Positions 2,138 through 19,143 of a DNA stretch of 64,000 bases are shown here, one piece after another. The position numbers and the translations under genes were made by a program. Within the stretch, counting starts at the first letter, position 1. Every line of letters begins with the position of its first letter. Below the pieces are notes generated by a model. It saw only the letters and a program-made list of their open reading frames with translations, ran no database searches and had not been told where the DNA came from. The stretch covers positions 1,925,501 to 1,989,500 of the forward strand of contig NZ_CP011770.1 of NCBI RefSeq assembly GCF_001028705.1, in the 5' to 3' direction. The stretch is from Croceicoccus naphthovorans. GTDB taxonomy: Bacteria > Pseudomonadota > Alphaproteobacteria > Sphingomonadales > Sphingomonadaceae.

Positions 2138-5100
2138 ATGACGATGGACTTTCAGTCAAACGGCGGCAACGACGGCCAGGCCAATGGCAACAGCGAAACC
2201 TTCGGCCTTGCCGAGGCGACGCCGATCTTCAACGGCGCCAGTAACGTCAAGCGCGTGATTGCCGACCCGGCCCGTGAAAACGTCCTTGTCCTGCCGGAAG
2301 GCGTCGGCCTCGACGACATTTCGGTCGAGGGTAACAACCTCGTCATTGCCCTGCCCGACGGCACGACGATGGTTGTTATCAACGGTGCGGTCTACGTTCC
2401 CGAAATCGTGATTGACGGCGTCACCGTCCCGCCGATGAACATCGCTGCGCTGCTCGATACCGACACGCCCGAACCGGCCGCCGGCAACCAGCAGAGCTCT
2501 GGCGGCGACTTTGCCGATCCGGTCAACCCGATCGATCCCGCCTACGATCTGGGCGATCTCCTTCCCTACACCGAACTGTTCTTCCCGCAGCCTGAGAATG
2601 AAGAAATCATTCCCTACCTGCTGAATGAAGTACCTGAAATCACGTTCATACCCGATACGGGCGATGGCACGATCGTGGATGAAGACGGTCTTCAGGGTAA
2701 CACCGACGAACGCCCGGAAACCCCGGGCACGATGGATGAAACCGACGACGAATCGACCACAGGTACGATCCGTTACGTCTCTCCCGACGGCACCGACAGA
2801 CTGCTGATCGATGGCCAGGACATTTTTGAAATCGTCGACGGCGAGGTTGTCATCCTCGAACCTTTCGTCAGCGGTTACGAGATGACCTACGGTACGCTGG
2901 TCATCAATGCGATCGACCTCGAAACCGGTTCGATAACCTATACCTACACGCTGACCGACAACACTGTTGGCGACGGTGTGCAGGACAGCTTCGACATCAC
3001 GGTCATTGACCCGCAAGGCGATTCCGATACCGGCACCGCCTTTATCGACATCATCGATGACGTGCCGTTCACCAATGACGATGGCGTCATCGCAACAGTC
3101 GACGACAACGCGACCGCGGTCGACGTCGGCTCGGTCGATCAATTGCTGATCAACGACGAATATGGTGCGGACGGCGTCGGCACGCCAGCCGTCACCATCG
3201 TCGGGCTAGGCAGCAACGGCGGCACGATCGAGATTGTCGACGGTCGCCTGATCTATAATTCGACCACCAACGTCGCTCCCGGTGAAACGGATTCAGAGAC
3301 GTTTACCTACATCATCACCGATAGTGACGGCAGCGAGAGCAATCCTTCGACCTTCACCATCAACCTAACCGATGAAGGCCCGACGATTGGCGATCCCGAT
3401 GGCGTCGCTGCGACGGTTGCGGTTGACGAAGAAGGCCTTGGCGGTCTGGCCGGTGGTCCGGAAAACGACCTGCCGGGCGAAGCCACGACGCAAAGCGGCA
3501 CGCTGTTCGGACTGGATTTCGGGTTCGATGGGCCGGGCGATGTGGTTCTGACCGGCACGACGTACGACAACCTGGTGACCCCTGACGGCAACTCGGTCGT
3601 CACGACCTGGGATGCTGACACCCACACCCTGACCGGCACGGACTCGGTCACCGGCGCGGAAATCTTCACCGTCGAACTGACCGTCGACGAAGACGGCATC
3701 CCGACCGGCGAATATACCTTCACGCTGATCTCGAACCTGACCCACCCTGCTGGCGACGGTGAGAATGATGTGAACTTCTCAATTGAAGTTGTCGTCACCG
3801 ATGCAGAAGGCGATCCCGCAACCGGCTTCATCAACGTGACGGTCGATGACGACAGTCCCGTGATCGAAGTGAACACGGATGCTCCGGTTGCGACGCTGGT
3901 TCTGGACGAGTCGCCGATTGGCGAGGATTCGGGCGATGACAGCGACGGCGGCACGCCGGTTGCGCCGGTTGGCCGTGCGACGATCACCGCCGACTTCTCG
4001 GGCAACTTCACGCTCTCCAACACCGACCCGAACGACCCGAACTTCGGTGCGGATACGCCCGGATCGGTTGCCTATACGCTGGTTCTGACGGGTGAAGATG
4101 TCGCGTCGGGCATGTTCACGCTCGACGATGTTTCCATCGTCCTCAATCAGGATGCCGATACCGGTGTCATTACCGGCTCGGCCGATGGCGTGGACTACTT
4201 CACCATCTCGGTCGATGCCGACACGGGCGTGGTTACTTTTGCCTTTACCGATGCCTATGCGAACATTGCGCATGACAATGCAGACTTCGACGATGACACC
4301 GCTGGCATCACGCTGACCGAAGGCACGCTGGTCCTGAACGCAACCGCCACCGACTTTGACGGTGACGATTCCCCGGCGGCCAGCATCGATCTTGGCGACA
4401 ACGTCTTCCAGATCCAGGACGACGGGCCGAGCCTGACGCTCAGCACCATCTCCGAAGATGACGATGGCGATCTCGTCACGATGACGAGCGATGCCGACAT
4501 CACTGATGTCGATGCGACGCTCAGCCTCTCCTCGTTCTTCTCGATCGGGTCGTCCGACTATGGCACCGATGGCGCCGGTTCGACGGTCGTGACCTATGGT
4601 CTGAACATCATCGGCGGCGGCGTCACGACGCTGACCAGCGGTGACGCGGCCATCACGCTTTACGAAGGCGAAGACGGCACGATCATCGGCTCGACCGCAG
4701 GCGATGCGGATTCGATCACCGACGAGAACACGATCTTCACCGTCTCGGTCGATAGCGAGACCGGCCTGATCACGCTGACCCAGAGCGGCCCGATCGACCA
4801 TGCCGACGACAGCGACCTCGCCTACCTTGGCGAAGGCGTGCTGGAAGGCACCTACAATGTCGTCGTCACCGATGCCGACGGCGATACCGAAACCGAAAGC
4901 TCGTCCATCGACCTTGGCGACAATATCGCGTTCGGTGATGACGCGCCGGTGATCGAAGTGAACACGGATGCTCCGGTTGCGACGCTGGTTCTGGACGAGT
5001 CGCCGATTGGCGAGGATTCGGGCGATGACAGCGACGGCGGCACGCCGGTTGCGCCGGTTGGCCGTGCGACGATCACCGCCGACTTCTCGGGCAACTTCAC

Positions 5101-8100
5101 GCTCTCCAACACCGACCCGAACGACCCGAACTTCGGTGCGGATACGCCCGGATCGGTTGCCTATACGCTGGTTCTGACGGGTGAAGATGTCGCGTCGGGC
5201 ATGTTCACGCTCGACGATGTTTCCATCGTCCTCAATCAGGATGCCGATACCGGTGTCATTACCGGCTCGGCCGATGGCGTGGACTACTTCACCATCTCGG
5301 TCGATGCCGACACGGGCGTGGTTACTTTTGCCTTTACCGATGCCTATGCGAACATTGCGCATGACAATGCAGACTTCGACGATGACACCGCTGGCATCAC
5401 GCTGACCGAAGGCACGCTGGTCCTGAACGCAACCGCCACCGACTTTGACGGTGACGATTCCCCGGCGGCCAGCATCGATCTTGGCGACAACGTCTTCCAG
5501 ATCCAGGACGACGGGCCGAGCCTGACGCTCAGCACCATCTCCGAAGATGACGATGGCGATCTCGTCACGATGACGAGCGATGCCGACATCACTGATGTCG
5601 ATGCGACGCTCAGCCTCTCCTCGTTCTTCTCGATCGGGTCGTCCGACTATGGCACCGATGGCGCCGGTTCGACGGTCGTGACCTATGGTCTGAACATCAT
5701 CGGCGGCGGCGTCACGACGCTGACCAGCGGTGACGCGGCCATCACGCTTTACGAAGGCGAAGACGGCACGATCATCGGCTCGACCGCAGGCGATGCGGAT
5801 TCGATCACCGACGAGAACACGATCTTCACCGTCTCGGTCGATAGCGAGACCGGCCTGATCACGCTGACCCAGAGCGGCCCGATCGACCATGCCGACGACA
5901 GCGACCTCGCCTACCTTGGCGAAGGCGTGCTGGAAGGCACCTACAATGTCGTCGTCACCGATGCCGACGGCGATACCGAAACCGAAAGCTCGTCCATCGA
6001 CCTTGGCGACAATATCGCGTTCGGTGATGACGCGCCGGTGATCACTGTCGTTGCAGCGGCCGGTGATGCAATTCTCGACGAATCCCCCGCCGGTACCGAC
6101 GAGGGCGACGATCAGGATCCGGGCTCGCCCTACGCGCCAGACGGCATCGCCAGCGACACGTTCGACTTCTCGGACAACTTCTCTCTGTCGAATGACGATC
6201 CCGATGCCGATGGCTTCGGCAACGACGTCCCCGGTTCGGTCAGCTATGCGCTGGTCCTGACGGGCGAGAACGTGGGTTCGGGTCTCTATGCTCTTGAATT
6301 CACCGATAGCGTCGTGGATGCCGACGGCTACGGCCAGGGCGATGAGATCATGCTCGCCCAGCTCGCCGACGGTACTATCGTTGGTTACATCGGCTCGGTC
6401 CCGACCGAAGCTGATGCCGACAACGTGTGGTTCACCATCACGGTGGACGGTGACACGGGCGTCGCGACCTTCACGCAGCTGCAGAACGTGTGGCATGCGT
6501 CTACCACCAGCGATGACGACACTTCGGTCATGGACATCACCGGTGGCACGCTGACGCTGGATGCCACCGCGACCGATTTCGACAACGACGATTCAACCTC
6601 GGCCTCGCTCGACCTGAACGGTGTGTTCCAGATTCAGGACGACGGCCCGGCCATACTTGGTGAAATCGACGACAACGTCGATGCCAGCATTGCCGACGAT
6701 CAGGCGACCGGCAACTTGCTGAACGCCACTTATGTCGACATCGGCACGGACTCGAGCGATAGCTTCGCAGGTCGCATCACGGCGATCACCTTTACCGATC
6801 CCGATACGATGGCCGTCAGCAACGACGACCTGTCGGGCGGCTATCCGCTGACGATCAACACCGCCTATGGCGATCTGGTCGTGACGGAAGATGGCCAGTA
6901 CACCTTCACGCTGGACGAAACGAACCCCGACGTCGTGGCACTGGGCACCGGTGACGTCATCGATCTCAGCTTCGGCTTCACGCTGACCGACGCCGACGGC
7001 GACCCGGAAAGCAACGTCCTCAACATCACCATCAAGGGCTCCAACCAGCCGCCCTATGGCGAAGTGCAGAATGCGGTCGTGTCGGAAGAAGGGCTCGACA
7101 ACGGCAACGAAGACGAAGTCGGCGTTCCGCAAGACGATACGGACAGCGCAAGCTTCAGCGGCACGTTTGCCTATGACGCGGTGACGAACCCCGGCGGGTT
7201 CCAGGACCCGGATGGCGACAACCTGAGCTTCACGATCGGCGTACCCACTGGTGACTATTATAGCGCCGACGGCACCCTGATCGTTTGGGAAGTCGGCGAA
7301 ATTGACGCCATCACCGGCGAGCAGGTTGTGACCGGTACTGCTGGGGAAGACGGCCCCTCGGTCGTCCGCGTCGTGCTCGATACCGAAACCGGCGACTACG
7401 ACGTCTATCTCGATGGTCCCGTCTATCACCTTGGCGAACCGAGCGAGACAGACGGCATCCCCGACGGCGACGGCAATATCGAGAGTGAGTTCAGCATCAC
7501 CTTCCCGGTTGTCGTGTCGGATGGCGTCATTGCCGACAACGTCGATACTTCGCTGATCGTCCAGATTGAGGACGACAGCCCGGTCGTCGCTGCGGCGGAC
7601 TTCGACCCAAGTCCTCTGGTAGTGGACGACTCCGATTTCGGCACCGACGCGACTTCAAGCTTTGCCGACGCTTTCGACATCGAATTTGGCGGTGACGGCG
7701 AATTCGACACGTTCTACACGCTGGGCGTCAGCGCGCAGGGCGCGGCAAGCGGGTTGACCGAAACGATCAGCGGCCTTGGCATCAACCTCTTCCTGATCGA
7801 TGGCGTGGTTTATGGCTCGACCGCGACGGACGTTGGCGACGTCGACGTAGGTGGCGGCAGCAACATTGCCTTCACCATCAGCGTCGATACCGACGGCGAC
7901 GTTACGCTCGACCAGTCGCAGCCGGTCGTTCACGATCTGGAAGGCTCCAGCGCCCTTGCCCTGGAAGAAGGCTATGCCGATGGTGAGGCCGAAGGGCTGA
8001 GCGCTGCCGATCTGGTAACGCTCACCGCCACGGCCTACGATCAGGACGGCGACAGCGCGAGCGAAACGATCGATATCGGCGACGCCTTCTTCTTCGAGGA

Positions 8101-11100
8101 TGACGGCCCCTACATCGAAGCCGCCGATCCAGTCGATGCCGGTTCGCTGATGACCAGCGACGCGGAGATTGTCGACGCCGACGGGACCAGCATCGATCCC
8201 GACGTAAAGCTCAATCTGGCCAATGTCTTCAGCTACACGGGCGCGGACGGCGGCAACGACGGGACGCAATCGATCGTCGAGAGCTATGGCATTGCGCTGC
8301 AGGTTGACGAAGGAACCGCAAGCGGCCTGTTCAGCGGTGGCGACCCCGTCTATCTGTACATTACCGACAGCGGCGTCGTGATCGGCTCTACTTCAGATAG
8401 CGAAGTTGCCATCGATGATCCCAGCGTCGTCTTCACGATCAATGTGAACAGCGATACCGGCTTTGTCGGGCTTGTTCAGGAACAGCCACTCGATCACACC
8501 GATGGCGGTGCCTTCGATGATGTTTTGCCGCTTCCAACTGGCTTGGTCGAGGCAACCTACACCGTCACCATCACCGATGGCGACAACGACACGGCGACGG
8601 CGAACCAGACTTACGATCTTGGCGGCAGCATAAACTTTGCAGACGATGTCCCGACGGAGCTGGCCGAAAGCGTTTCCGTGTCGGTTGCAGAAGATGAACT
8701 GCCCGGCGGCAATCCCGACGACGATGGTATCAACACCACGGCGACCGGATCGTTTGGCGCGCTGGTCGATGCGGGCAACGACCTTCCCGGTACGTTCGCT
8801 TTCGACCTTTCGGGTTTTGTCGATCCGGGCCTGACGTCGGGTGGCGATACCGTCTTGTGGACGGTAATCGGCGATGGCGCGACACTGGTCGGATATACCG
8901 GTGACACCGTACCGACGGACGTGACCGACGCTGGCGTCGTGCTGACCGTTGCAATCACCGATGCGCAAAGCGGGGCTTTCACCGTTACGCTTCGCGATCA
9001 GGTCGATCACATTCCGAACGATCCGGCCAACGACGACAACCAGACCCTGTCGATCGATATCGCCAGCGGCATCACCTACACCGACTATGACGGTGACACG
9101 GTTTCGCTGGCCACGGTTATCGAGGGCGAGGATACCAATGCCACCGCGATCATCGTGATCGAGGACGATATCCCGGTCATCTTCACGCCAGATGCGGCAA
9201 CGCTGACCAACGCGGACGAGGCGACTTTCACCGGCAAACTCGATCTAGACGATAACATCCTGAACAACCTTGGCGCGGATGGCGGATCGGTAGTCTTCTC
9301 CGACACGCTGGAAGGTGCGGACAGCGGGATGGAAGCAGGCGGACAGCCGATCATCTACTCGCTGTCGGATGACGGCCAGACGCTGACCGGTACGGCCAAC
9401 GGCAACACGCTCTTCACGATCACGATCAATCAGGATAACTCCGAATACACGGTCGAAATGTTCGGCAAGGTTGACGCCTTTACCGAAGTCAACTTCACCG
9501 ACGCCAACTATGACTTCATCGGCGGCAACGACGGTTGGTTCGGCATCGTACCCAATGGTGAGATTTCAGATCCGATCGCCAACAATTCGCAGGATGTGCT
9601 GATCACGCCGATCGGCGGTCCGTCGGTCAACACATCCGGGATTCTGGGCGGTGTGGATACTGGCCAGTCAGTCGGCCCGAGCGAAGGTTTCCGGATCGAC
9701 TACGTCGTCGATCTGACCGGTTCTCCACCGAACAACTACACGGATGGTCAGGTCAATAATCACACGTTTGAAGGTCACTGGACCACAAATGGTGCATCGG
9801 TAAGCTTCCGCCAGTCGACGGGAACCACCCTGCGCTTCAGCGCCTATGACGACAACGGCGACACGGGCACCGACGGTAACGACATCGTGGGCGACGGTGT
9901 CCAGGACACGATCACCGGCATCGTCATCTCGTACAACGGTGTCCAAAGCGCGGACCTGACCCCAACCGGTTCGTTACAGACTGTCACCATTTCGGGACGG
10001 ACGTTCAGCTATCAGCTCGACGGCGACGGCGGCGTGGTCATCGGCAACATAGGTGGTGCCAACGGGAACAGCGGTCCGCCCGAAACGACGGTCGCGATCT
10101 TCACCGCCGACGGATACAATTCGATGGAGGTCGACTATGTGTCTGGCCAGACCATCAAATTCTCGGGCTTTGGCGCCGCTACCGAATCGCAGGATCCGGT
10201 CGACTTCTCGGTGCCGCTGCTGATCGTCGATGGCGACGGCGATACGACCGATACGGTAGACCTTGATGTCACGCTAAACCCCGAAATGGTCACTCCGCTG
10301 GTTCTTGACCTCAATGGCGAAAACGGTGCGGAGATCGTCGGTCACGAAGCTGGCTTCACCTACGACTATGGCGATGGCCTGATGGCGACGGCATGGGTTG
10401 GCGAAGGCGACGGCATTCTCGCCCACAACGGCGAAGATGGCATCAATTTCGTTTTCGGTGGCGAGGGTGTGACCGATCTGGAAGGGCTTGCCGTCTACGA
10501 CAGCAATGGCGACATGCTGCTCGATAGCAGCGATGCCGAGTGGCTGAATTTCGGTGTCGTTCTGCAGAACGGCGACTTCGTGACGCTTGCTGACGTGAAC
10601 GTCACCTCGATCAGCCTCGAAGGCGACGACACGCCGTATTACACCGCCGGTGGCGATGCGATCGTGTTCCAGACTTCAAGCTTCACGCAGACGATCGAAA
10701 CCGAGGTGGAAGGTGAAACCGTCGAGGTTGAGGTCGAGCGGACCACTGCCGACGCCGGCTTCCTGATCGCCCCGGCTAACGACGACGAGGTGCAACAACC
10801 GATGCGTCAGGCAGAGGCGGCGCTGATCGCTGCGGCTGCTCCGGGCCTGCTGGTGGCGGCTTCGCTCCACAACACGCCGCTTTTCGATGACGATGGAATG
10901 GTTAATTTCGTCCCAACCGACATCGAATTCGCAACAGCTGTGAATGCGATCACACCGAACGAGGTCGATCTGTCGCATGTCTCTCCCATGGCAGGGATGG
11001 ATAACGACGCTGAACCGGAAGCGATGGCGACGGGTGGTTCGCACCTCTCGAATGATGGCGGGTTCGAAGCCGCGTCGTTCGGTGGAGGCGAAGGACCTGC

Positions 11101-11506
11101 ACACCACGCAGCCGATCTGGGTGCGTCTGCAGAGGCAGTGGTTAATTTCGCGCCAACGACTACCCCGGTCTCCGGACCGGAAGTCGGTGCCGAGGTTCTT
11201 GCCGCCCTGCTCGACATGGGTGCACCCGCGGCAACGCCGAACGGCGATGCAGAGGGTTCCGATGTCGGCGTGCCAGAAGCAGTCGTCGCTGCACTTGAAG
11301 AAGTCACCGGCAGCGATCCGATCTCCGAACTGGTAGAGCAAGTTGTTGACACGGCTCCTGAATCGGCACACCACGCCGTTGCAGGAACCGACGTGATGGA
11401 AGCGCTGCTGAACAGTGGGGTTGCAGGGCATCACTTCCAGATGGCGTCGCCGGTTGCGGTTGAGCATGCAGACGATGCCGCTCAGCTTGCCGCGGCGGCA
11501 GCCTGA
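2138..11506 (+). CDS. Giant LapA-type repeat adhesin secreted by type I system
   Basis: A 3122-aa, very acidic, Asp/Gly/Thr-rich protein in which I found no cysteine. Residues 1-110 resemble the retention module of LapA-type adhesins. A dialanine motif PAAG sits at residues 113-116, where LapG-type proteases cut. From about residue 215 to 2500 it is built of roughly a dozen beta-rich modules of the T1SS-143/VCBS/DUF5801 kind, most ending in a D-D-x-P motif. Residues about 575-1302 are a perfect 363-aa tandem duplication. Near residue 2720 is a VLDLNGENG domain typical of calcium-binding secreted proteins. The C-terminus is Ala-rich and has no GGxGxD nonapeptides. It should be exported by the ABC/HlyD/TolC genes downstream and held at the surface until cut. 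The ATG at 2144 has better spacing from GAGG (8 nt) than 2138 and may be the true start. Confidence 0.88.
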   Translation: MTMDFQSNGGNDGQANGNSETFGLAEATPIFNGASNVKRVIADPARENVLVLPEGVGLDDISVEGNNLVIALPDGTTMVVINGAVYVPEIVIDGVTVPPMNIAALLDTDTPEPAAGNQQSSGGDFADPVNPIDPAYDLGDLLPYTELFFPQPENEEIIPYLLNEVPEITFIPDTGDGTIVDEDGLQGNTDERPETPGTMDETDDESTTGTIRYVSPDGTDRLLIDGQDIFEIVDGEVVILEPFVSGYEMTYGTLVINAIDLETGSITYTYTLTDNTVGDGVQDSFDITVIDPQGDSDTGTAFIDIIDDVPFTNDDGVIATVDDNATAVDVGSVDQLLINDEYGADGVGTPAVTIVGLGSNGGTIEIVDGRLIYNSTTNVAPGETDSETFTYIITDSDGSESNPSTFTINLTDEGPTIGDPDGVAATVAVDEEGLGGLAGGPENDLPGEATTQSGTLFGLDFGFDGPGDVVLTGTTYDNLVTPDGNSVVTTWDADTHTLTGTDSVTGAEIFTVELTVDEDGIPTGEYTFTLISNLTHPAGDGENDVNFSIEVVVTDAEGDPATGFINVTVDDDSPVIEVNTDAPVATLVLDESPIGEDSGDDSDGGTPVAPVGRATITADFSGNFTLSNTDPNDPNFGADTPGSVAYTLVLTGEDVASGMFTLDDVSIVLNQDADTGVITGSADGVDYFTISVDADTGVVTFAFTDAYANIAHDNADFDDDTAGITLTEGTLVLNATATDFDGDDSPAASIDLGDNVFQIQDDGPSLTLSTISEDDDGDLVTMTSDADITDVDATLSLSSFFSIGSSDYGTDGAGSTVVTYGLNIIGGGVTTLTSGDAAITLYEGEDGTIIGSTAGDADSITDENTIFTVSVDSETGLITLTQSGPIDHADDSDLAYLGEGVLEGTYNVVVTDADGDTETESSSIDLGDNIAFGDDAPVIEVNTDAPVATLVLDESPIGEDSGDDSDGGTPVAPVGRATITADFSGNFTLSNTDPNDPNFGADTPGSVAYTLVLTGEDVASGMFTLDDVSIVLNQDADTGVITGSADGVDYFTISVDADTGVVTFAFTDAYANIAHDNADFDDDTAGITLTEGTLVLNATATDFDGDDSPAASIDLGDNVFQIQDDGPSLTLSTISEDDDGDLVTMTSDADITDVDATLSLSSFFSIGSSDYGTDGAGSTVVTYGLNIIGGGVTTLTSGDAAITLYEGEDGTIIGSTAGDADSITDENTIFTVSVDSETGLITLTQSGPIDHADDSDLAYLGEGVLEGTYNVVVTDADGDTETESSSIDLGDNIAFGDDAPVITVVAAAGDAILDESPAGTDEGDDQDPGSPYAPDGIASDTFDFSDNFSLSNDDPDADGFGNDVPGSVSYALVLTGENVGSGLYALEFTDSVVDADGYGQGDEIMLAQLADGTIVGYIGSVPTEADADNVWFTITVDGDTGVATFTQLQNVWHASTTSDDDTSVMDITGGTLTLDATATDFDNDDSTSASLDLNGVFQIQDDGPAILGEIDDNVDASIADDQATGNLLNATYVDIGTDSSDSFAGRITAITFTDPDTMAVSNDDLSGGYPLTINTAYGDLVVTEDGQYTFTLDETNPDVVALGTGDVIDLSFGFTLTDADGDPESNVLNITIKGSNQPPYGEVQNAVVSEEGLDNGNEDEVGVPQDDTDSASFSGTFAYDAVTNPGGFQDPDGDNLSFTIGVPTGDYYSADGTLIVWEVGEIDAITGEQVVTGTAGEDGPSVVRVVLDTETGDYDVYLDGPVYHLGEPSETDGIPDGDGNIESEFSITFPVVVSDGVIADNVDTSLIVQIEDDSPVVAAADFDPSPLVVDDSDFGTDATSSFADAFDIEFGGDGEFDTFYTLGVSAQGAASGLTETISGLGINLFLIDGVVYGSTATDVGDVDVGGGSNIAFTISVDTDGDVTLDQSQPVVHDLEGSSALALEEGYADGEAEGLSAADLVTLTATAYDQDGDSASETIDIGDAFFFEDDGPYIEAADPVDAGSLMTSDAEIVDADGTSIDPDVKLNLANVFSYTGADGGNDGTQSIVESYGIALQVDEGTASGLFSGGDPVYLYITDSGVVIGSTSDSEVAIDDPSVVFTINVNSDTGFVGLVQEQPLDHTDGGAFDDVLPLPTGLVEATYTVTITDGDNDTATANQTYDLGGSINFADDVPTELAESVSVSVAEDELPGGNPDDDGINTTATGSFGALVDAGNDLPGTFAFDLSGFVDPGLTSGGDTVLWTVIGDGATLVGYTGDTVPTDVTDAGVVLTVAITDAQSGAFTVTLRDQVDHIPNDPANDDNQTLSIDIASGITYTDYDGDTVSLATVIEGEDTNATAIIVIEDDIPVIFTPDAATLTNADEATFTGKLDLDDNILNNLGADGGSVVFSDTLEGADSGMEAGGQPIIYSLSDDGQTLTGTANGNTLFTITINQDNSEYTVEMFGKVDAFTEVNFTDANYDFIGGNDGWFGIVPNGEISDPIANNSQDVLITPIGGPSVNTSGILGGVDTGQSVGPSEGFRIDYVVDLTGSPPNNYTDGQVNNHTFEGHWTTNGASVSFRQSTGTTLRFSAYDDNGDTGTDGNDIVGDGVQDTITGIVISYNGVQSADLTPTGSLQTVTISGRTFSYQLDGDGGVVIGNIGGANGNSGPPETTVAIFTADGYNSMEVDYVSGQTIKFSGFGAATESQDPVDFSVPLLIVDGDGDTTDTVDLDVTLNPEMVTPLVLDLNGENGAEIVGHEAGFTYDYGDGLMATAWVGEGDGILAHNGEDGINFVFGGEGVTDLEGLAVYDSNGDMLLDSSDAEWLNFGVVLQNGDFVTLADVNVTSISLEGDDTPYYTAGGDAIVFQTSSFTQTIETEVEGETVEVEVERTTADAGFLIAPANDDEVQQPMRQAEAALIAAAAPGLLVAASLHNTPLFDDDGMVNFVPTDIEFATAVNAITPNEVDLSHVSPMAGMDNDAEPEAMATGGSHLSNDGGFEAASFGGGEGPAHHAADLGASAEAVVNFAPTTTPVSGPEVGAEVLAALLDMGAPAATPNGDAEGSDVGVPEAVVAALEEVTGSDPISELVEQVVDTAPESAHHAVAGTDVMEALLNSGVAGHHFQMASPVAVEHADDAAQLAAAAA
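2474..2485 (+). other. Predicted LapG cleavage motif PAAG in the adhesin
   Basis: These four codons encode Pro-Ala-Ala-Gly (residues 113-116), between the folded N-terminal region and a Ser/Gly/Asp-rich linker. LapG-family proteases cut between the two alanines of [T/A/P]-A-A-[G/V]; in Pseudomonas LapA the site is at about residue 108. The position and the presence of a LapG homologue 7 bp past the secretion operon make this the likely release site. It is inferred, not shown. Confidence 0.65.
3860..6043 (+). repeat. Perfect 1089-bp tandem duplication inside the adhesin gene
   Basis: The stretch 3860-4954 recurs at 4949-6043 with an offset of 1089 bp (363 codons, in frame). Every segment I compared was identical, and the peptides in the real frame and in several other frames are identical, so third-codon positions match too. 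Each unit holds two beta modules, one ending IQDDGP and the other GDDAP. The perfection at silent sites points to recent unequal crossing-over or gene conversion. Confidence 0.93.
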
Positions 11507-11518
11507 TCCGTTCCGATA

Positions 11519-11541
11519 AAAAGGTATTAAGGGGGCCTTTT
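11519..11541 (+). other. Hairpin between adhesin and OmpA genes
   Basis: AAAAGG at 11519-11524 can pair with CCTTTT at 11536-11541. The loop carries AAGGGGG, which is the ribosome-binding site of the next gene (ATG at 11545). It could be a partial terminator or could modulate OmpA translation. The stem is short, so this is tentative. Confidence 0.3.
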
Positions 11542-11544
11542 ACG

Positions 11545-12240
11545 ATGAAAACCTGGCAAATCCTCGCTTCCGCCTCGGCGATTGCGACGGTCGCATCCAG
11601 CCCTGCCCTTGCGCAGGACGCGGTCGACCTGATGTCGCTCAGCGACTCTGAACTGAAAACAGAGCTGGAGATGCGTTACGACACGTCTCTGGCCGCGACG
11701 CTGGATCCGGCGATCGTGAATTCGACCGACACCCGTTATATGTGGGCCTCAGAGGCGAAAGTGCAGTGCGCGATCGCCATCGGGTTCATGAAGAACGATC
11801 TGCGCGACGAAGACTCGATCCGCAAATGCGACGCTGCATGGCTGCGCTGGCAGGCTGCTCCTCCGCCGCCTCCCCCGCCGCCACCGCCTCCGCCGCCCGC
11901 GGTTTGCAACACCGGCAACTTCATCGTGTTCTTCGACTGGGATAGTTCGACAATCACGCCCGAAGCGGCCAGCACGCTTGATGGCGCCATCGCCGGTCTG
12001 GCCGATTGCGACACCGTATCGGTTCAGCTTGGCGGCTATACCGACACCTCCGGCTCGGACACCTACAACATGGGCCTTTCCGAACGCCGCAACGATGCGG
12101 TCGAATCCTATCTGACCGCGCGCGGCGTTACCGACAGCGCGATCAACAGCGCCGCATTCGGCGAAAGCAACCCGCGCGTTCCAACCGCCGATGGCGTGCG
12201 CGAGCTGCAGAATCGCCGCGTCGAAATAATGGTCCAGTGA
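11545..12240 (+). CDS. OmpA-family peptidoglycan-binding protein
   Basis: A 231-aa exported protein. A clear signal peptide ends at ALAQ (about residue 24). A short N-terminal region with two Cys is followed by an uninterrupted run of about 13 prolines (about residues 110-123). The C-terminal OmpA domain (about residues 128-231) has the motif TDTSGSDTYNMGLSERRNDAV, which in this family binds diaminopimelate in peptidoglycan. It lies 38 bp after the adhesin stop and 11 bp before the TolC gene, on the same strand. OmpA-like genes recur in type I adhesin loci, where they may tie the secretion machine to the wall. The ribosome-binding site AAGGGGG is strong. Confidence 0.85.
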   Translation: MKTWQILASASAIATVASSPALAQDAVDLMSLSDSELKTELEMRYDTSLAATLDPAIVNSTDTRYMWASEAKVQCAIAIGFMKNDLRDEDSIRKCDAAWLRWQAAPPPPPPPPPPPPPAVCNTGNFIVFFDWDSSTITPEAASTLDGAIAGLADCDTVSVQLGGYTDTSGSDTYNMGLSERRNDAVESYLTARGVTDSAINSAAFGESNPRVPTADGVRELQNRRVEIMVQ

Positions 12241-12251
12241 GGGGGACGGAC

Positions 12252-13652
12252 ATGAAAACCTATCTCAAGTTCGCCGCCGCTGCCGCAGGCCTGCTTTGCG
12301 CCTCGGTTTCCGGCACCGCGCTCGCTCAGGGCGCTCCCGTCTCGCTGCAGGAAGCCGTCGCCGTGGGCGTCGATTCCAACCCTGAAATCAGCCAAGCGCA
12401 GATGAACAAGGAAGCCATCCAGTTCGAGCGCAAGCAGGCGCAAGGGCTGTACGGTCCGCGCATCGACATCGAAGGATCGATCGGTGCCCGCAACCTTGAA
12501 AACCCGACGCGCCGTTCGCTTGGGATCGCCAGCGACTGGCTCTACCCGATGGAAGCGAAAGTTGCCGCCGACTGGGTGGTGATCGACTTCGGTCGTCGCC
12601 GCGGCGAGCTGCTGCGTCAGGCATCGCGCGTCGACGGCGCCTCGCTGCGTGTTCTGGAACGTTCGGAATTCGTCGCCCTGCAGATTGCGCGTCAGTATCT
12701 GGATGTGATGCTGCAACAGCGCGTGATGGCCGCATCGATGGACAACACCGCGTTCCACCGCGAACTGGTGGGCAGCCTGACACGGGGCGTCGATCAGGGC
12801 TCGATCTCTATCGCCGACCAGCAGCAGGCAGAGGAACGCCTTCAGGCCGCCCTCGTCCGGGAAGCGGAATCGGCGGAAACGCTGAAGAACGCGCAGATCC
12901 GCCTGCAGTCGCTGACGGGCCTGACAATCGACAACGTCATGACCCCGCCGAACCTGTCGGCCATGATGCCGACTGGTGAGGAAGACGCGATCGGTCTTGC
13001 CCGCACCCGCAACCCGCTGGTGTTGGAAGCCAAGGCCGACGTCGATGCGGCGCGCGCGCTCGCCGAGAGCGCGAAGGGCGATCTTTACCCGACGATCGGC
13101 GTCGATGCCTATGCCCGCACGGGTGACGATATCGACGGTTTCAAGGGAACGACGAACGACCTGATGGCCCGCGCCTATCTGAAGTGGAACATCTTCGACA
13201 GCGGTATCAACCATGCCAAGTATCAGGAGATGGTCCGCCGTTCGAGCGAGGCCCGCTTCCGCCTGCACACGCGTGAGCGTGAGGCGGAAGAGGACGTGCG
13301 CATGGCGTGGAACGGGCTGCAGACGCAAACCCGCATCGTTGGCGATCTGACGACGCAGAGCAGCGTGACCGACGGGTTGCTGGAATCCTATCAGGGCCAG
13401 TTCAACGTGGGTCGCCGTTCGCTGCTCGACGTGCTGGATGCGCAGAACACCCGCTATAACGTGCAGGTCCGCCTTGAAACCGCGCGCTTCTCGGAAATCT
13501 TTGCCCAGTATCAGGTGCTAGCCGCAACCAACCGCTTCCTTGAAGCGCTGTCGGTTCCGCCGCACTATGGCGCGGGCGAGACCGAGCGTGATCGGTTCGA
13601 TTACGGCCCGCATATCCCGGCCGAACGGGAAAGCCGGGTCTATCCGAAGTAA
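12252..13652 (+). CDS. TolC-family outer membrane protein of the type I system (LapE-like)
   Basis: A 466-aa outer-membrane channel protein. The signal peptide ends at ALAQ (about residue 26). Two TolC/OEP repeats follow, rich in long amphipathic helices; the conserved GRRSLLDVLDAQNTRYNVQV stretch near residue 385 is typical of TolC/AggA-type exit ducts. The ATG at 12252 follows GAGGGGGACGGAC. It forms the outer part of a tripartite exporter with the ABC protein and HlyD-type adaptor encoded next, and its expected substrate is the giant adhesin. The C-terminal 30 residues are charged and may be disordered. Confidence 0.9.
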   Translation: MKTYLKFAAAAAGLLCASVSGTALAQGAPVSLQEAVAVGVDSNPEISQAQMNKEAIQFERKQAQGLYGPRIDIEGSIGARNLENPTRRSLGIASDWLYPMEAKVAADWVVIDFGRRRGELLRQASRVDGASLRVLERSEFVALQIARQYLDVMLQQRVMAASMDNTAFHRELVGSLTRGVDQGSISIADQQQAEERLQAALVREAESAETLKNAQIRLQSLTGLTIDNVMTPPNLSAMMPTGEEDAIGLARTRNPLVLEAKADVDAARALAESAKGDLYPTIGVDAYARTGDDIDGFKGTTNDLMARAYLKWNIFDSGINHAKYQEMVRRSSEARFRLHTREREAEEDVRMAWNGLQTQTRIVGDLTTQSSVTDGLLESYQGQFNVGRRSLLDVLDAQNTRYNVQVRLETARFSEIFAQYQVLAATNRFLEALSVPPHYGAGETERDRFDYGPHIPAERESRVYPK

Positions 13653-13694
13653 GGGCTGCGCCTGCGCAGCTTTAAGGAACTGAGGTCAAACTCC

Positions 13695-15866
13695 GTGAAT
13701 TCCGCTGCGCCGGAAAAGTTCGAGGCGTCTTCGGCCAAGCCGGAGACAAATGCAGCCAGGCAGGTCGATCCGCTGATCGCCTGCCTGGCTCGCATCGCCC
13801 GGCATTTCGACACACCGTTCGCCACCGCGACACTGGCATCATCGCTGGCATTCGCGCCGGATGGCACCCTGCCCTGGCACCAGGCCGGACCGGCGCTGGA
13901 ATTGCTGGGCCTGAATTACGACGAGAGCCCGGCAAAGAAGCTGCCGCTCGTCAATTCATTCTATCCGCTGATCCTGCGCGATGCCGAGGGCGGTCTGACC
14001 GTCCTGCTCGACCGCAATGGTGATGACGTGCTGGCGTGGCAGCCGGGCGATGAAAAGGATGCGTGGCGCCCGGCAAGCGATCTGGCCACCGGCGGCAAGC
14101 TTACGCTGCTCTCAATCGAAGGCGACCCGTCCGCCCTGCGCGATGCGGGGCAGCCGTGGCACCAGCGCGCGCGTGCGCACTGGTTCTGGTCTGAAATCAG
14201 CAAACGTCGCCGTGAATTCTGGCCGGTGATCGTCGCGTCGGTTGTGATCAATTTCCTTGCGGTCGCGCTGCCGATCTTCACGATGAACGTGTACGACCGC
14301 GTGATCCCGAACCGCGCCGGTTCCAGCCTGTGGGTGCTGGCCATCGGTGTGCTTGTCGCCTTCACGCTGGAGTTCTTCCTGCGCAAAGCGCGAACCAACG
14401 TGCTGGACGAGATCAGCCGCGATATGGACATCAGCCTGTCGCAGAAGATCTACGCCCGCGTGATGTCGACGCCGCTGGCGGCAAAAACCGGGCATACCGG
14501 CAACCTTGTCGCGCGGGTCAGCGAATATGCCATCGTGCGCGATTTCTTTGCGGCGACGACGATCACGTTGATGGTCGACGTGTTTTTCCTGTTCATCTTC
14601 ATCGGCTTTATCGCGATCATCGCCGGCCCGCTGGCGCTGATCCCGCTCGTTATCATCACCGGCATGATTTTGCTCGGCATCCGCCTGCAACGCCAGATCA
14701 CTGACAGCACGCGCGATGCGCAGGCCGATTACGGGCTACAACAGACGCAGTTGGTCGAGTCCATCGCCGGTCTCGAAACGCTGAAGTCCATCGCCGGCGA
14801 AGGCGAAATGCTGGGTCGCTGGCGGCGCATTTCCGACATGGCGAGCCGCTCGCAAAAGCGGCTGCGCGAGGTCAACTCGACCGCTATCGGCGCGGCGGCG
14901 ACGTTCCAGCAGATTTCAACGATCTCGCTGGTCATCGGCGGCTATTACCTGTTCGATGCGGGCGTGATTTCAATGGGCGCGATCATCGCCATCGTCATGC
15001 TCGCCTCGCGCGCTCTCGCCCCGGCTGGGCAGTTGGCCTACCTCCTCACCCGCTGGAAGCAGGCGAGCGAAACGCTGGATTCTATCGAACATCTCTGGGA
15101 CGGCCCGGATGAGCGCCGAATGGGCAGTTCCTCGCTGCCGCCGCAGGTGCGCAACGCGAATATCGCGCTTCAGGGCGTAAACTTCTCCTACCCCGGTTCA
15201 AGCGTCCCTTCGCTGAAAGACGTGAACCTGACGATCCGCCCCGGCGAGCGCATTGCGATCATCGGGCGTGTCGCGGCGGGCAAGTCGACGCTGGGCCGCA
15301 TCCTGTCGGGCCTGTTCGAGCCGGACGAAGGCGCGATGCTGATCGATGGGATCGACTCCCGCCAGTATCGCCCGCACGACATCCGCCGCAATTTCCGTTT
15401 CGTGGCGCAGGATTCGAACCTTTTCTCGGGTACCATCAAGGACAACCTCGCCCTCGCAGGGGCGCGGGCGAGCGAACAGCAGTTGATCGGCGCGCTGCGC
15501 AAGGTCGGTGCAGATCGCTTCCTGTCGCGCGATGCGGGCGGTTTTGATCGTGCAATTGGCGAAGGTGGGCGCGCACTCTCGGGCGGGCAACGCAACTTCC
15601 TTGCCCTCGCCCGCGCGTTCGTCGCGCCCAGCCACTTGCTGTTTCTGGACGAGCCGACCGGCGCGATGGATCAGCAGACCGAGAAACTGTTTATCGAGTG
15701 CCTGTCACAAAGTCTGACACCCACGCAAACGCTGGTTGTGGCGACTCACCGTCCCGCGTTATTTGCGTTGTGTGAACGGGTTATCGTTGTGAACGACGGT
15801 CGTATCGTCGCCGACGGACCCAAGGACGAGGTTATCAGAAGTGCCGGAATCGACCGTGCCAGCTAG
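13695..15866 (+). CDS. Type I secretion ABC transporter, LapB-like
   Basis: A 723-aa inner-membrane permease/ATPase. Residues 1-150 form a C39-peptidase-like domain without the usual catalytic Cys context, as in exporters of large adhesins and RTX proteins. Residues about 165-440 are the six-helix transporter domain. The ATPase domain follows, with Walker A GRVAAGKST (about 523), signature LSGGQ (about 630) and Walker B LLFLDEPTG. The start is GTG with AGG upstream; no ATG fits better. The stop lies 26 bp inside the next gene, which suggests translational coupling. Its likely substrate is the adhesin encoded upstream. Confidence 0.9.
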   Translation: MNSAAPEKFEASSAKPETNAARQVDPLIACLARIARHFDTPFATATLASSLAFAPDGTLPWHQAGPALELLGLNYDESPAKKLPLVNSFYPLILRDAEGGLTVLLDRNGDDVLAWQPGDEKDAWRPASDLATGGKLTLLSIEGDPSALRDAGQPWHQRARAHWFWSEISKRRREFWPVIVASVVINFLAVALPIFTMNVYDRVIPNRAGSSLWVLAIGVLVAFTLEFFLRKARTNVLDEISRDMDISLSQKIYARVMSTPLAAKTGHTGNLVARVSEYAIVRDFFAATTITLMVDVFFLFIFIGFIAIIAGPLALIPLVIITGMILLGIRLQRQITDSTRDAQADYGLQQTQLVESIAGLETLKSIAGEGEMLGRWRRISDMASRSQKRLREVNSTAIGAAATFQQISTISLVIGGYYLFDAGVISMGAIIAIVMLASRALAPAGQLAYLLTRWKQASETLDSIEHLWDGPDERRMGSSSLPPQVRNANIALQGVNFSYPGSSVPSLKDVNLTIRPGERIAIIGRVAAGKSTLGRILSGLFEPDEGAMLIDGIDSRQYRPHDIRRNFRFVAQDSNLFSGTIKDNLALAGARASEQQLIGALRKVGADRFLSRDAGGFDRAIGEGGRALSGGQRNFLALARAFVAPSHLLFLDEPTGAMDQQTEKLFIECLSQSLTPTQTLVVATHRPALFALCERVIVVNDGRIVADGPKDEVIRSAGIDRAS

Positions 15867-16929
15867 CCCCGGATCCACCGGCAGGCCCACCAAGCGCCGC
15901 TTTGGCGCGCAGGCAATTGCGCTCTGGCTTTTTCTGGCCGCGCCGCTGCTCATCTTCGGCGGCATGTCCGTGTTTCCCGTTGGCGTCGACGAAGCGAAGG
16001 CCGTCTCGCTGCCGATGGAGACAGTTCGCGAACAAAAGCGCGAAGTCGTCGCCCTGACCGAAGGCAAAAGCCGCGCCCTACTTGCCAAGGGCGATGGGGC
16101 GAAAGAGCGCAACGCGACCATCGCTTTCTCATCTCAGCCGGTCGAAACCATGCGCGGCTTTGTGGCTGCCAACGTCCCTGCCAATGCACAACGCTGTTTG
16201 ACCCAGGCCATCTATTACGAAGCGGGTTTTGAACCGGAAGACGGCAAGCGCGCGGTGGCGCAGGTCGTTTTGAACCGCGTGCGGCATCCGGCCTATCCGA
16301 ACTCGGTCTGCGGCGTCGTCTATGAAGGTTCGAACCAGCGCGTCTGTCAGTTCAGCTTTACTTGCGACGGCGCTCTCAGCCGCCCGCCCGCCGCTGGTGC
16401 ATGGGCATCCGCCAATCGCATCGCGAGAGAGGCACTGGCAGGCCGCGTGGAAAAGAGCGTCGGCAGCGCGACTCACTACCATGCCGATTACGTCGTGCCG
16501 CGCTGGGCCTATTCATTGGGCAAGGTGCGCCAATTGGGCAGCCATATCTTTTATCGCTTCAACGGCGGGCTTGGCAGCGCAAGGGCATTCAGCGCGCTTT
16601 ACAGCGGGTCTGAATCGATCCCGTCTGTGCGTATGGCGGACACCCCAACGAGCGGTGGCCCCGACCCGCAGACTGGCCGCTATGAAAACGGTTTGACCGT
16701 CGCGCCCGACGTCAAGGACCGTCACGCCAGCAGCGACATCGGCGGAAGGTTGGACACAACGAAGGAATGGCGGCTCGAATTGCCAAAGGCTGGCCGGTAC
16801 AAACAACTGGTTGCGGCGCATGGCGATGCGAAGGCGCCGGCCAAGGCTGAGCCCGCCAAAACCGCAACCGCAACCGCCGCACCGGGTTTTGGCGATCTGC
16901 TGACAGAGGACGCGGAACCGGGCGCATGA
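15841..16929 (+). CDS. SleB-type cell wall hydrolase embedded in the secretion operon
   Basis: A 362-aa protein starting at GTG inside the 3' end of the ABC transporter gene. A single membrane anchor or signal helix lies at about residues 20-42. The catalytic SleB/Hydrolase_2 domain spans about residues 105-235 and shows the family signatures CLTQAIYYEA (catalytic Glu) and AVAQVVLNRVRHPAYPNSVC. The C-terminal 120 residues are low-complexity, rich in Ala and Lys. The family comprises lytic transglycosylases and spore-cortex or wall hydrolases. It overlaps the ABC gene by 26 bp and the adaptor gene by 4 bp (ATGA), so it is probably co-translated with them and may open the wall for the exporter. 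That role is inferred. Confidence 0.87.
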   Translation: MPESTVPASPGSTGRPTKRRFGAQAIALWLFLAAPLLIFGGMSVFPVGVDEAKAVSLPMETVREQKREVVALTEGKSRALLAKGDGAKERNATIAFSSQPVETMRGFVAANVPANAQRCLTQAIYYEAGFEPEDGKRAVAQVVLNRVRHPAYPNSVCGVVYEGSNQRVCQFSFTCDGALSRPPAAGAWASANRIAREALAGRVEKSVGSATHYHADYVVPRWAYSLGKVRQLGSHIFYRFNGGLGSARAFSALYSGSESIPSVRMADTPTSGGPDPQTGRYENGLTVAPDVKDRHASSDIGGRLDTTKEWRLELPKAGRYKQLVAAHGDAKAPAKAEPAKTATATAAPGFGDLLTEDAEPGA

Positions 16930-18197
16930 TCGACAGGTTGAAGGCACGCTGGGCACGACTTGATTCAAGTCGCAGGCTGATCGTCGTGGCGGCGATCGGG
17001 CTGGTCGTCCTGATCGTCTGGGCCGCATTTGCCCCGCTGGACGACATCACGCGCGGCCAGGGCAAGGTCATCCCCAACAGCAAGGTGCAGCTGGTCCAGG
17101 CCGCCGACCCCGCTACCGTCGAGGAAATCCTTGTTCAGAACGGCGAACAGGTGAAACGCGGGCAATTGCTGGTCCGTCTGAACGACAGCGAGAGCGCGAG
17201 CCAGCTGGGTCAGCTGGAAACCGAGACTGCGCGCCTGTCGCAACGTGCCGACCGCTTGCAGCGCGAAGCCAGCGGCAGCGGCACCGGTTGCGAGCCGGGC
17301 AGCGTTTGCGCAGAAGAACAACGCTTGCAGCAGGTTCGCCAAGCTGCCGCACGCAGCCGCCAGCAGGCATTGGCCGCCGCGGTCGAACAGCGCCGCCGCG
17401 ATCTTAGCGAGGGTCAGGCCACCGCGCAGTCGCTGGAGAGCAGCCTAGCCCTGGCCCGCGAACAGGTGCGCATGCTGGAGCCGCTCGCCAAGCAGGGCAT
17501 CGTACCGCAGACCGAACTGATCACCGCACAGCGCGATGTGGTGGATATGCAGGGCCGCCTCTCTGCCGCGCGTCAAAGCGTGCAGCGGGCCAGCGCAGCC
17601 GTGCGCGAAGCACAGGCTGACCTGTCCAGCGCCCGGCTCGACTTCCAGCAGCAGGCACTTAACGAGCGCAGCGAACTCGCAACCCGGATCGCGGTGAACG
17701 AGGAGTCGATAAAGGGCGCCGCCGCACGCGTTTCGCGCAACGAATTGCGCGCGCCCGTCGATGGCATCGTCAACGATCTGCAGGTCACGACGGTAGGCGG
17801 CTTCGTCTCACCGGGTGAACAGATCATGCAGGTCGTACCCACCGGCGACCGCCTGTTGGTAGAGGCCAAGATCCGCCCATCCGACATCGCGTTTATCAAG
17901 GTGGGCGACCCGGCCAATGTAAAGGTCACCGCCTTCGACTTCTCGATCTACGGTGGCCTGCGCGGCAAGGTCCGGCAGATCAGCGCTGACAGCGTCTATG
18001 ACGAAAACGAGCGTGAGAGCTATTACCTTGCCCAGATCGAAACCGACCGTGCTTTTATCGCGCATGGCGGGCAGAGGCTGGCGATCATGCCCGGCATGAT
18101 TTGCGAGGTTGAGATCATCACCGGCCGCAAGAGTGTGCTGACCTATCTGTTGAAGCCGATCACGCGCGGGCTGAACACCGCGCTCACCGAGAAATAG
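16926..18197 (+). CDS. HlyD-family type I secretion adaptor, LapC-like
   Basis: A 423-aa periplasmic adaptor. A short basic N-terminus precedes one transmembrane helix (about residues 18-38). Next come the biotinyl-lipoyl half (TRGQGKVIPNSKVQLVQAAD), a long alpha-helical hairpin with many Gln/Arg/Ala (about residues 95-275), the second lipoyl half and a beta-barrel domain. The C-terminal RLAIMPGMICEVEIITGRKS motif is the HlyD signature. The ATG overlaps the wall-hydrolase stop (ATGA). It completes the exporter with the LapB-like and TolC-like proteins and is the last gene of the unit; the convergent protease gene ends 7 bp further on. Confidence 0.92.
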   Translation: MIDRLKARWARLDSSRRLIVVAAIGLVVLIVWAAFAPLDDITRGQGKVIPNSKVQLVQAADPATVEEILVQNGEQVKRGQLLVRLNDSESASQLGQLETETARLSQRADRLQREASGSGTGCEPGSVCAEEQRLQQVRQAAARSRQQALAAAVEQRRRDLSEGQATAQSLESSLALAREQVRMLEPLAKQGIVPQTELITAQRDVVDMQGRLSAARQSVQRASAAVREAQADLSSARLDFQQQALNERSELATRIAVNEESIKGAAARVSRNELRAPVDGIVNDLQVTTVGGFVSPGEQIMQVVPTGDRLLVEAKIRPSDIAFIKVGDPANVKVTAFDFSIYGGLRGKVRQISADSVYDENERESYYLAQIETDRAFIAHGGQRLAIMPGMICEVEIITGRKSVLTYLLKPITRGLNTALTEK

Positions 18198-18204
18198 CGT
18201 CTGC

Positions 18205-19143
18205 TTAAAACCCGTGGAGAAAGCGCTTGTCGGCGCTGAACGACAGGATCGGGCGGTAGTCGTTGGCGACATCGCCATCGAGCAACGCGTCGCTCGCATT
18301 ATCGAGCATTACCGAGCGACCTTCGATCTTGACGATCAGCACCGCGTGATCTGCGCGACGGACCAAATCGCGCGCGATGGTCAGGTACATGTCATCGCGT
18401 GGAACACCCAGCCCCGCGAGCAATTCCATCTTGGCGATCGCATAGTCTTCACAATCGCCCTTGCCTCGTGAAAGCGTTTCGCTGGCCGTCGCCCAATAAT
18501 CGGTCTTGCCATAAAGCTTTGCGTCGTCGGTAAAGGCGACGCGCGCGTTGACCCAGGCGTTGACCCTGGCAATGCGCTTTTCAAGCGATGCCTCGCCCGC
18601 ATCAATCGCGGACAATGCGGCCGTGTTCAGTCCGGAACCCGCCCCACTCACCCGGCGCCAGTCGGCATCGAAGTTGGTCTTCGAGATCGGTACGACGCGG
18701 CTTTGCAGAAAGTCGAACCGCTTCGCTTTTACGACGGGGCGCGCCGATACGAACGGCTTGGCGCAAGTGATGCCGATATAGGCGGAGGGTTGTAGCGATG
18801 CGCTGGCCGCCTGTGCAGCGATGGCAGGCATATAAGACGGGCGGTTCTCAATGGCGGCGGTTTGTGCGGCGCTTAGCGTGAAAGAAGGGTTTGCCTGTTT
18901 CGCGCGCATCGCTTCCAAAGCCGACATCGGCTTGGCTCGAGAGATGTGCGAAGTAGCGATTGGCGCGGCGGGTGCGCTGGCTTTGCAAGCCACGGAGCTG
19001 GCGAAATTGGTCACTGCCGAAGCGATGATGGCCGATCCTGCAACCGGAGCCTGCGCCTGCGAAGCGACCGGCACGAAGGCGGCCGCTGCGAAGGCGAGCT
19101 TGGCAAGGCTGCGAACCTTGGGGGAAAGGGGCGCACTGGGCAT
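18205..19143 (-). CDS. lapG: LapG-type periplasmic cysteine protease (transglutaminase-like)
   Basis: A 312-aa exported protein of the bacterial transglutaminase-like cysteine protease (LapG) family. The signal peptide ends near ASQAQA. The C-terminal half carries the catalytic set: Cys231 in GKGDCEDYAIAK, His266 in RRADHAVLIV and Asp281 in VMLDN. The spacings (35 and 15) are close to those of Pseudomonas LapG. The Asp before the Cys fits the calcium-binding site of LapG. The ATG at 19143 has AAAAGGG upstream and is preferred over a GTG 24 bp earlier. The N-terminal 140 residues are longer than in Pseudomonas LapG. The gene faces the adhesin secretion operon, and its predicted target is the PAAG site of the adhesin. 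Its usual controller LapD is not in this window. Confidence 0.87.
   Translation of the reverse strand: MPSAPLSPKVRSLAKLAFAAAAFVPVASQAQAPVAGSAIIASAVTNFASSVACKASAPAAPIATSHISRAKPMSALEAMRAKQANPSFTLSAAQTAAIENRPSYMPAIAAQAASASLQPSAYIGITCAKPFVSARPVVKAKRFDFLQSRVVPISKTNFDADWRRVSGAGSGLNTAALSAIDAGEASLEKRIARVNAWVNARVAFTDDAKLYGKTDYWATASETLSRGKGDCEDYAIAKMELLAGLGVPRDDMYLTIARDLVRRADHAVLIVKIEGRSVMLDNASDALLDGDVANDYRPILSFSADKRFLHGF

Follow-up and report, generated by a model that had tools for sequence, protein, structure and literature searches.

The analyzed window, a stretch of 64,000 nucleotides, covers positions 1925501 to 1989500 of contig 1 in the 3.86 Mb genome of Croceicoccus naphthovorans and contains a gene cassette that encodes a giant adhesin together with its exporter and a protease of the LapG type. 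All coordinates below refer to the window. Downstream of the adhesin gene (2138..11506, plus strand) and in the same orientation lie the genes of an OmpA-family protein (11545..12240), which adjoins it at the 3′ side, a TolC-family outer-membrane channel in the role of LapE (12252..13652, with the start placed at the ATG at 12252), a LapB-type ABC exporter (13695..15866), a cell-wall hydrolase of the Hydrolase_2 family (15841..16929) and a HlyD-family adaptor in the role of LapC (16926..18197). The intergenic distances in this order are 38, 11, 42, −26 and −4 bp. The protease gene (Peptidase_C93; 18205..19143, minus strand) is convergent with the HlyD gene and separated from it by a gap of 7 bp.

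A type I exporter of the LapB, LapC and LapE type adjoins the adhesin gene. The LapB-type exporter scored 692.5 bits with the model TIGR03375, which is 0.6 bits under the cut-off of 693.1, and the TolC-family protein reached 182.8 bits, also under the cut-off of its own model (225.15). The first-pass annotation of this DNA had described an exporter trio following the adhesin. All three exporter genes are present, but they are not contiguous, since the hydrolase gene is located between the ABC exporter and the HlyD adaptor genes, and the OmpA gene is part of the cassette as well.

The protease comprises 312 aa from the ATG at 19143, and the residues C231, H266 and D281 were found intact exactly as previously claimed. 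All 20 cassette proteases selected with BLAST keep the Asp-Cys-Glu motif, which is also present, together with the catalytic His and Asp, in all 71 protease open reading frames (ORFs) that were paired with adhesin modules by hand and picked by a pattern containing the catalytic Cys. In the cassette proteases the calcium-motif residues are conserved along with the catalytic ones. The nearest solved sequences and folds were those of LapG (4u65 and 4fgo/4fgp/4fgq), the six top fold matches of the predicted protease were all LapG structures, and the catalytic domain was predicted by AlphaFold2 with block pLDDT values of mostly 84–98. The earlier designation as LapG-type thus holds for both sequence and fold, while the protein falls short of the equivalog NF045674 (80.7 bits vs. 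a cut-off of 320). Homologues are mostly named "transglutaminase-like cysteine peptidase" or similar, and in the shortened names of the 120 matches listed of 520, LapG does not occur.

For the analysis of linkage, the N-terminal module of the adhesin (157 residues) and Peptidase_C93 were searched in 149 genomes of the family, resulting in matches in 26 and 33 genomes, respectively. Peptidase_C93 was present in 26 of 26 module-positive genomes vs. 7 of 123 module-negative ones (Fisher p 5e-23, kinship ignored). In each of the 26 module-positive genomes, adhesin or exporter genes are present on the same extracted stretch as the protease, and the distance between module and protease ranges between 1.4 and 22 kb (19 same-contig pairs). 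Peptidase_C93 was also present in 49 of 49 named module-positive genomes searched, which derive from 50 of 80 named loci and in part overlap the 149. The cassette genes of the window were matched in 17–19 of 19 loci, whereas genes outside adhesin and cassette in five inspected loci were matched in at most two other loci. The adhesin-protease pairing is real, in line with the previous assignment of the two genes to one system.

In one of the seven genomes with a protease but without the module (G122, locus L072), the hydrolase, HlyD and protease genes are kept and the exporter is only a fragment. This fragment adjoins integrase- and transposase-like reading frames, as judged by eye, and the locus appears to be a broken cassette.

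The adhesin ORF encodes 3,122 aa from the ATG at 2138, carries DUF5801 / T1SS-143 repeats and is devoid of the RTX motif GGxGxD. The predicted protease site PAAG (2474..2485, plus strand) corresponds to residues 113–116 in this numbering, as had been stated; in the database copy, which begins at the second ATG (3,120 aa), it corresponds to residues 111–114. LapA is reportedly cut near residue 108. PAAG is present once in the whole adhesin, and the more general motif [TAP]AA[GV] twice, at residues 113 and 1306, with an expectation from composition of 1.2 in the whole adhesin and 0.06 per 160 residues. A single motif of this kind would be weak evidence by itself. Its recurrence at the equivalent position in homologues is not due to chance. 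In a table of 80 rows, which includes the window sequence three times, P113 was Pro in 78, A114 was Ala in 68 and Glu in 9, A115 was Ala in 75 and G116 was Gly in 76 rows. The site is followed by the nearly invariant SSGGDF (residues 120–125; 2495..2512, plus strand), with S120, G122 and F125 in 80 of 80 rows, and by the highly conserved LGDLLPYTEL (residues 138–147; 2549..2578, plus strand), in which G139 and L141 are invariant over the 80 rows. In Vibrio FrhA, PAAG is a LapG site, and a change to PRRG rendered the protein insensitive (PMC6890996, in part).

The adhesin gene also contains a near-identical direct repeat (3840–4139 and 4929–5228; 98%, spacing 1089 bp), which on the sequence reflects a 363-aa repeat block that was duplicated recently.

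Upstream of the site, a beta domain (residues 38–97; 2249..2428, plus strand) and a helix (residues 99–109; 2432..2464, plus strand) were predicted using AlphaFold2 with 58 sequences. The block pLDDT of the beta domain was 79–87 over residues 46–95 and 60 over residues 36–45, with a mean of 70.1 for the prediction. Compared with canonical modules, the helix takes the place of the LapG targeting helix, and PAAG is located in a stretch predicted to be disordered. In the family of the window adhesin, the beta domain and the helix are followed, often via EP or NP, by P-[AE]-A-G and then SSGGNF; the canonical modules (n = 20, obtained via NCBIfam retention_LapA) show a parallel order of beta domain, longer linker, helix, DPT, TAAG and GGGH.F. 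A profile comparison of the whole module with the canonical ones scored 28.7, with 20.8 as the best of 200 column shuffles. The beta domain alone scored 18.1, equalled by 1 of 200 shuffles, and the helix with the site scored 19.0, equalled by none of 200. Residues 64–80 of the beta domain resemble the BapA prefix-like domain (NF033677; E 0.039), but with 13.8 bits the match is far under the cut-off of 35 bits and membership is not shown. In a Pfam scan of isolated N- and C-terminal adhesin stretches no family was found up to E 1, and a search of solved structures with the module profile gave no match up to E 10.

For the identification of a regulator, the N-terminal LapD domain LapD_MoxY_N was searched at several levels. 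No match was found in the own genome. Among the 149 family genomes three weak matches of 20–24 bits were obtained, one of which was barely above the cut-off once in-frame neighbours were added. The 14 fixed control genomes were negative in all searches. Among 249 genomes of the phylum, 71 were positive. Of these, 13 belong to the same class; their matches are without exception weak (best E 3.4e-10) and show that Alphaproteobacteria possess distant relatives of the domain. In the four best phylum loci a LapG-like gene is located beside LapD. Beside the protease, no LapD receptor (LapD_MoxY_N with GGDEF-EAL) was found. The cassette fails this test for LapD and is not a complete Lap module, contrary to the first description. 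The HD-GYP domain (HD_5, PF13487) looked for as a component of a Dvh system was likewise not found in the own genome (controls 4 of 14), dCache not being part of this search. One of the weak matches, in genome G065, was rejected as a LapD: it is a GGDEF protein whose gene has an OmpA-type lipoprotein gene and a further small gene as neighbours, a group that we take to resemble the YfiN/YfiR/YfiB set.

The own genome encodes six EAL proteins, among them one in which a GGDEF domain that looks degenerate to the eye is preceded by a large N-terminal region, likewise judged by eye to be CHASE2-like. This protein fits the view that the cyclic di-GMP (c-di-GMP) switch is complete and uses a non-LapD receptor encoded elsewhere, of a third, unrecognised type. 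A precedent is DvhD of Desulfovibrio, in which LapD is replaced by an unrelated receptor architecture (PMC13090378, in part). When seven queries (the LapD of one of the four best phylum loci and the six own EAL proteins) were compared with 38 sphingomonad stretches, consisting of 26 cassettes and 12 others, however, they gave only a single match, of 121 aa and about 6 kb from the protease (L052). The CHASE2-like protein was discarded as a LapD substitute, being matched in 14 of 26 module-positive vs. 42 of 123 module-negative genomes (Fisher p 0.075) and hence not tied to the cassette. HD-GYP (HD_5) proteins were not detected in the genome either. With receptor types beyond these not searched, such a remote receptor is a real possibility, if a somewhat doubtful one.

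A further candidate for control is the N-terminal extension of the protease itself. In 77 homologues, selected by hand among the 120 listed out of 520, the catalytic Cys is preceded by a median of 230 residues, compared to 100–106 residues in four LapD-linked LapGs, whose starts were chosen by eye. Two Cys of the extension are conserved (C53 in 76 of 77, C127 in 77 of 77), as is the motif S.LE.MR.QQ, with S74 and L76 in 76 and Q83 in all 77 homologues. This motif coincides with a helix (residues 74–83; 18895..18924, minus strand), which AlphaFold2 placed at residues 75–84. Residues 71–100, comprising this helix and a second one (92–99), were predicted at block pLDDT 71–82, with a value of 82 for the block 71–80, between flanks of 41–60. 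That this helix is predicted better than the poor stretches around it hints at, but does not demonstrate, docking on the catalytic domain. These features would agree with a self-regulated protease, in which the extension with its Cys pair and helix covers the site for the substrate helix and is relieved by redox state, calcium or processing. On the other hand, the window protease is devoid of the AILGG part of the extension motif found in many relatives, and a second Peptidase_C93 of the same genome (L002; G000:C1:2343778-2344125) also has two Cys ahead of its catalytic Cys, so the extension may be a general feature. Self-regulation of this kind is considered unlikely. The L002 gene lies in a stretch of 3.3 kb in which no adhesin or exporter ORF was seen by eye.

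Taking the cassette as a whole, we consider it quite probable that the adhesin is retained and released in a LapG-like manner under a control that does not depend on LapD. The exporter would thread the adhesin through the TolC channel, and the folded N-terminal module would stay in the periplasm and jam the channel, thereby holding the adhesin on the cell surface. The protease of the LapG type would likewise be exported to the periplasm, dock onto the helix preceding the site and free the adhesin by a cut at PAAG. The control would be exerted by something other than LapD, for which another membrane receptor, the protease extension, calcium or transcription may be considered.

Several observations weigh against LapG-like release. 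The curated retention_LapA model (NF033682) had no match in the genome or in the adhesin protein, and a fold search with the predicted module returned nothing convincing. Of the retention-like domain proposed previously, the layout and a weak profile similarity were thus recovered but not the curated model, and the structure check suggested for residues 1–115 yielded the predicted order of beta domain, helix and site without a convincing fold match. The helix at residues 99–109 is predicted with modest confidence, its block pLDDT of 73 dropping to 57. Homology of the N-terminus to LapA-type retention modules, as a divergent member, is likely but not proven, because hhalign gave probabilities of only 23% and 32%. 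Furthermore, the dialanine varies. Among 105 parsed loci (26 family-sample genomes and 80 named loci minus L146, which was not parsed; some genomes are duplicated), 70 carry PAAG or TAAG, 25 PEAG and 10 other sequences, whereas AAG is found in 20 of 20 canonical retention_LapA modules, which were chosen by a model whose span covers the site. The dialanine site announced in the first-pass annotation is therefore correct for the window adhesin, in which [T/A/P]AA[G/V] follows the N-terminal module, but not universal in homologues: the first Ala is replaced by Glu in 25 of 105 loci, so that the family as a whole does not depend on A114. Finally, release may be unregulated, as the searches identified no regulator, and LapG-family proteases can serve other ends in Alphaproteobacteria, by analogy with HvyA of Caulobacter.

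HvyA is a family member involved in capsulation, and such proteases often occur near transport systems (PMC4241560, in part). Like the window protease, it is a Peptidase_C93 from an alphaproteobacterium, and in both proteins the catalytic Cys (C192 in HvyA) is preceded by a long stretch and, at a distance of 14 residues, by a Trp. In a comparable role, the window protease would act on capsule or exporter parts, and the adhesin would be a secreted or non-cleaved surface protein. HvyA is encoded in a capsule export locus, whereas the window protease belongs to an adhesin export cassette. HvyA-like proteases of other species occur in other contexts (PMC4241560, in part), so the location in a capsule locus does not decide membership. 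The tight linkage of the protease to one adhesin module and the conserved site region argue against an HvyA-like role, as does, with the caveats given below, the co-variation between protease and site. It is regarded as very unlikely, and LapG-like release of the adhesin is preferred.

PEAG is carried by 14 of the 71 module-protease pairs, and since all 71 proteases keep Asp-Cys-Glu, His and Asp, an altered site does not imply a dead protease. If the cut is made between residues 114 and 115, PEAG lineages, which include many Sphingopyxis, would present Glu at P1. For the analysis of co-variation, 60 protease columns were ranked against Glu at the site and the top five were simulated. Columns 165, 222 and 285 beat all 1000 simulations, with weaker results for columns 201 (p 0.005) and 220 (p 0.014); these p values are without multiple-testing correction and the tree was built from the protease itself. 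By parsimony the Glu trait changed only 5 times, and much of it comes from a single genus, Sphingopyxis. Column 222 (GTG numbering; 214 from the ATG) was basic in 12 of 16 Glu-site proteases vs. 6 of 55 others, i.e. the basic residue is missing in 4 of the 16 Glu genomes and present in 6 of the 55 remaining ones. This column is located three residues before the Trp aligned to HvyA W178 by the spacing of 14 residues from the catalytic Cys. The variant W178S of HvyA was non-functional (PMC4241560, in part). The basic columns tracking Glu suggest, as a lead only, that the protease reads the predicted PAAG/PEAG site. A more extended proposal is that sphingomonads use a Lap system without LapD, in which the switch is part of the protease: its N-terminal extension, with the Cys pair and a helix that mimics the substrate, would block the enzyme until an envelope signal arrives. 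Adhesin and protease would have co-evolved, with some lineages cutting Glu-Ala in place of Ala-Ala. This combination appears quite unlikely.

The system resembles Lap of Pseudomonas fluorescens in its giant type I secreted adhesin with beta domain, helix and [TAP]AAG, its LapG-type protease with a C-H-D triad and its LapB/LapC/LapE-type exporter. It differs in that no LapD was found, the module has no retention_LapA match and the window adhesin no RTX motif, in the convergent orientation of the protease gene and the N-terminal extension of the protease, in the hydrolase and OmpA-family genes within the cassette and in the frequent Glu for the first Ala in relatives. With the Dvh system of Desulfovibrio vulgaris (DvhA, DvhG, DvhD) it shares the Lap logic outside Gammaproteobacteria, and DvhA likewise has a helix near the beta domain and a short linker to the site (PMC13090378, in part). 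Unlike for Dvh, no HD-GYP (HD_5) protein was found in the genome of the window.

In Lap and Dvh, a membrane receptor reads c-di-GMP and restrains the periplasmic protease. A cassette family with adhesin, exporter and protease but neither known receptor raises the question of what restrains the protease. The natural Ala-to-Glu changes of the site, together with the basic residues in the partner proteases, offer a ready test of LapG specificity. A literature search, with subscription journals largely outside its scope, revealed no paper pairing LapG with Sphingomonas, which agrees with the earlier remark that such systems are little described in sphingomonads. LapG and LapD occur together with sphingomonads in two papers, in one of them as a reference and a generic figure legend, and together with Alphaproteobacteria in three.

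With respect to the additional cassette genes, the hydrolase gene is kept across relatives and was detected in 23 of 26 module-positive stretches; the remaining three (L060, L061, L071) stop short of its position, as judged from coordinates. Conserved within the exporter operon, the hydrolase (15841–16929) perhaps opens the peptidoglycan for the secretion channel. OmpA-like genes are present in some other Lap-type loci. Here, the OmpA gene beside TolC was not detected in L058, and the stretches L042, L057, L064, L067, L069, L071 and L060 stop at or before its position and are uninformative in this respect. In L060 and L061 (genomes G035 and G118), the protease gene is located upstream of the adhesin gene in divergent orientation and not convergent behind HlyD.

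The module of the window adhesin is 75–78% identical to the modules of five Croceicoccus genomes. A class-wide search with a model built from the sphingomonad module family matched 5 of 385 genomes, the own one included, and the other four matches were weak. Three of these four (L240, L241 and L242), from other alphaproteobacterial families, carry NPEAG, APAAG or PEPAAG and, after it, GGGANF or SSGGTF, and the design may accordingly extend beyond the sphingomonads.

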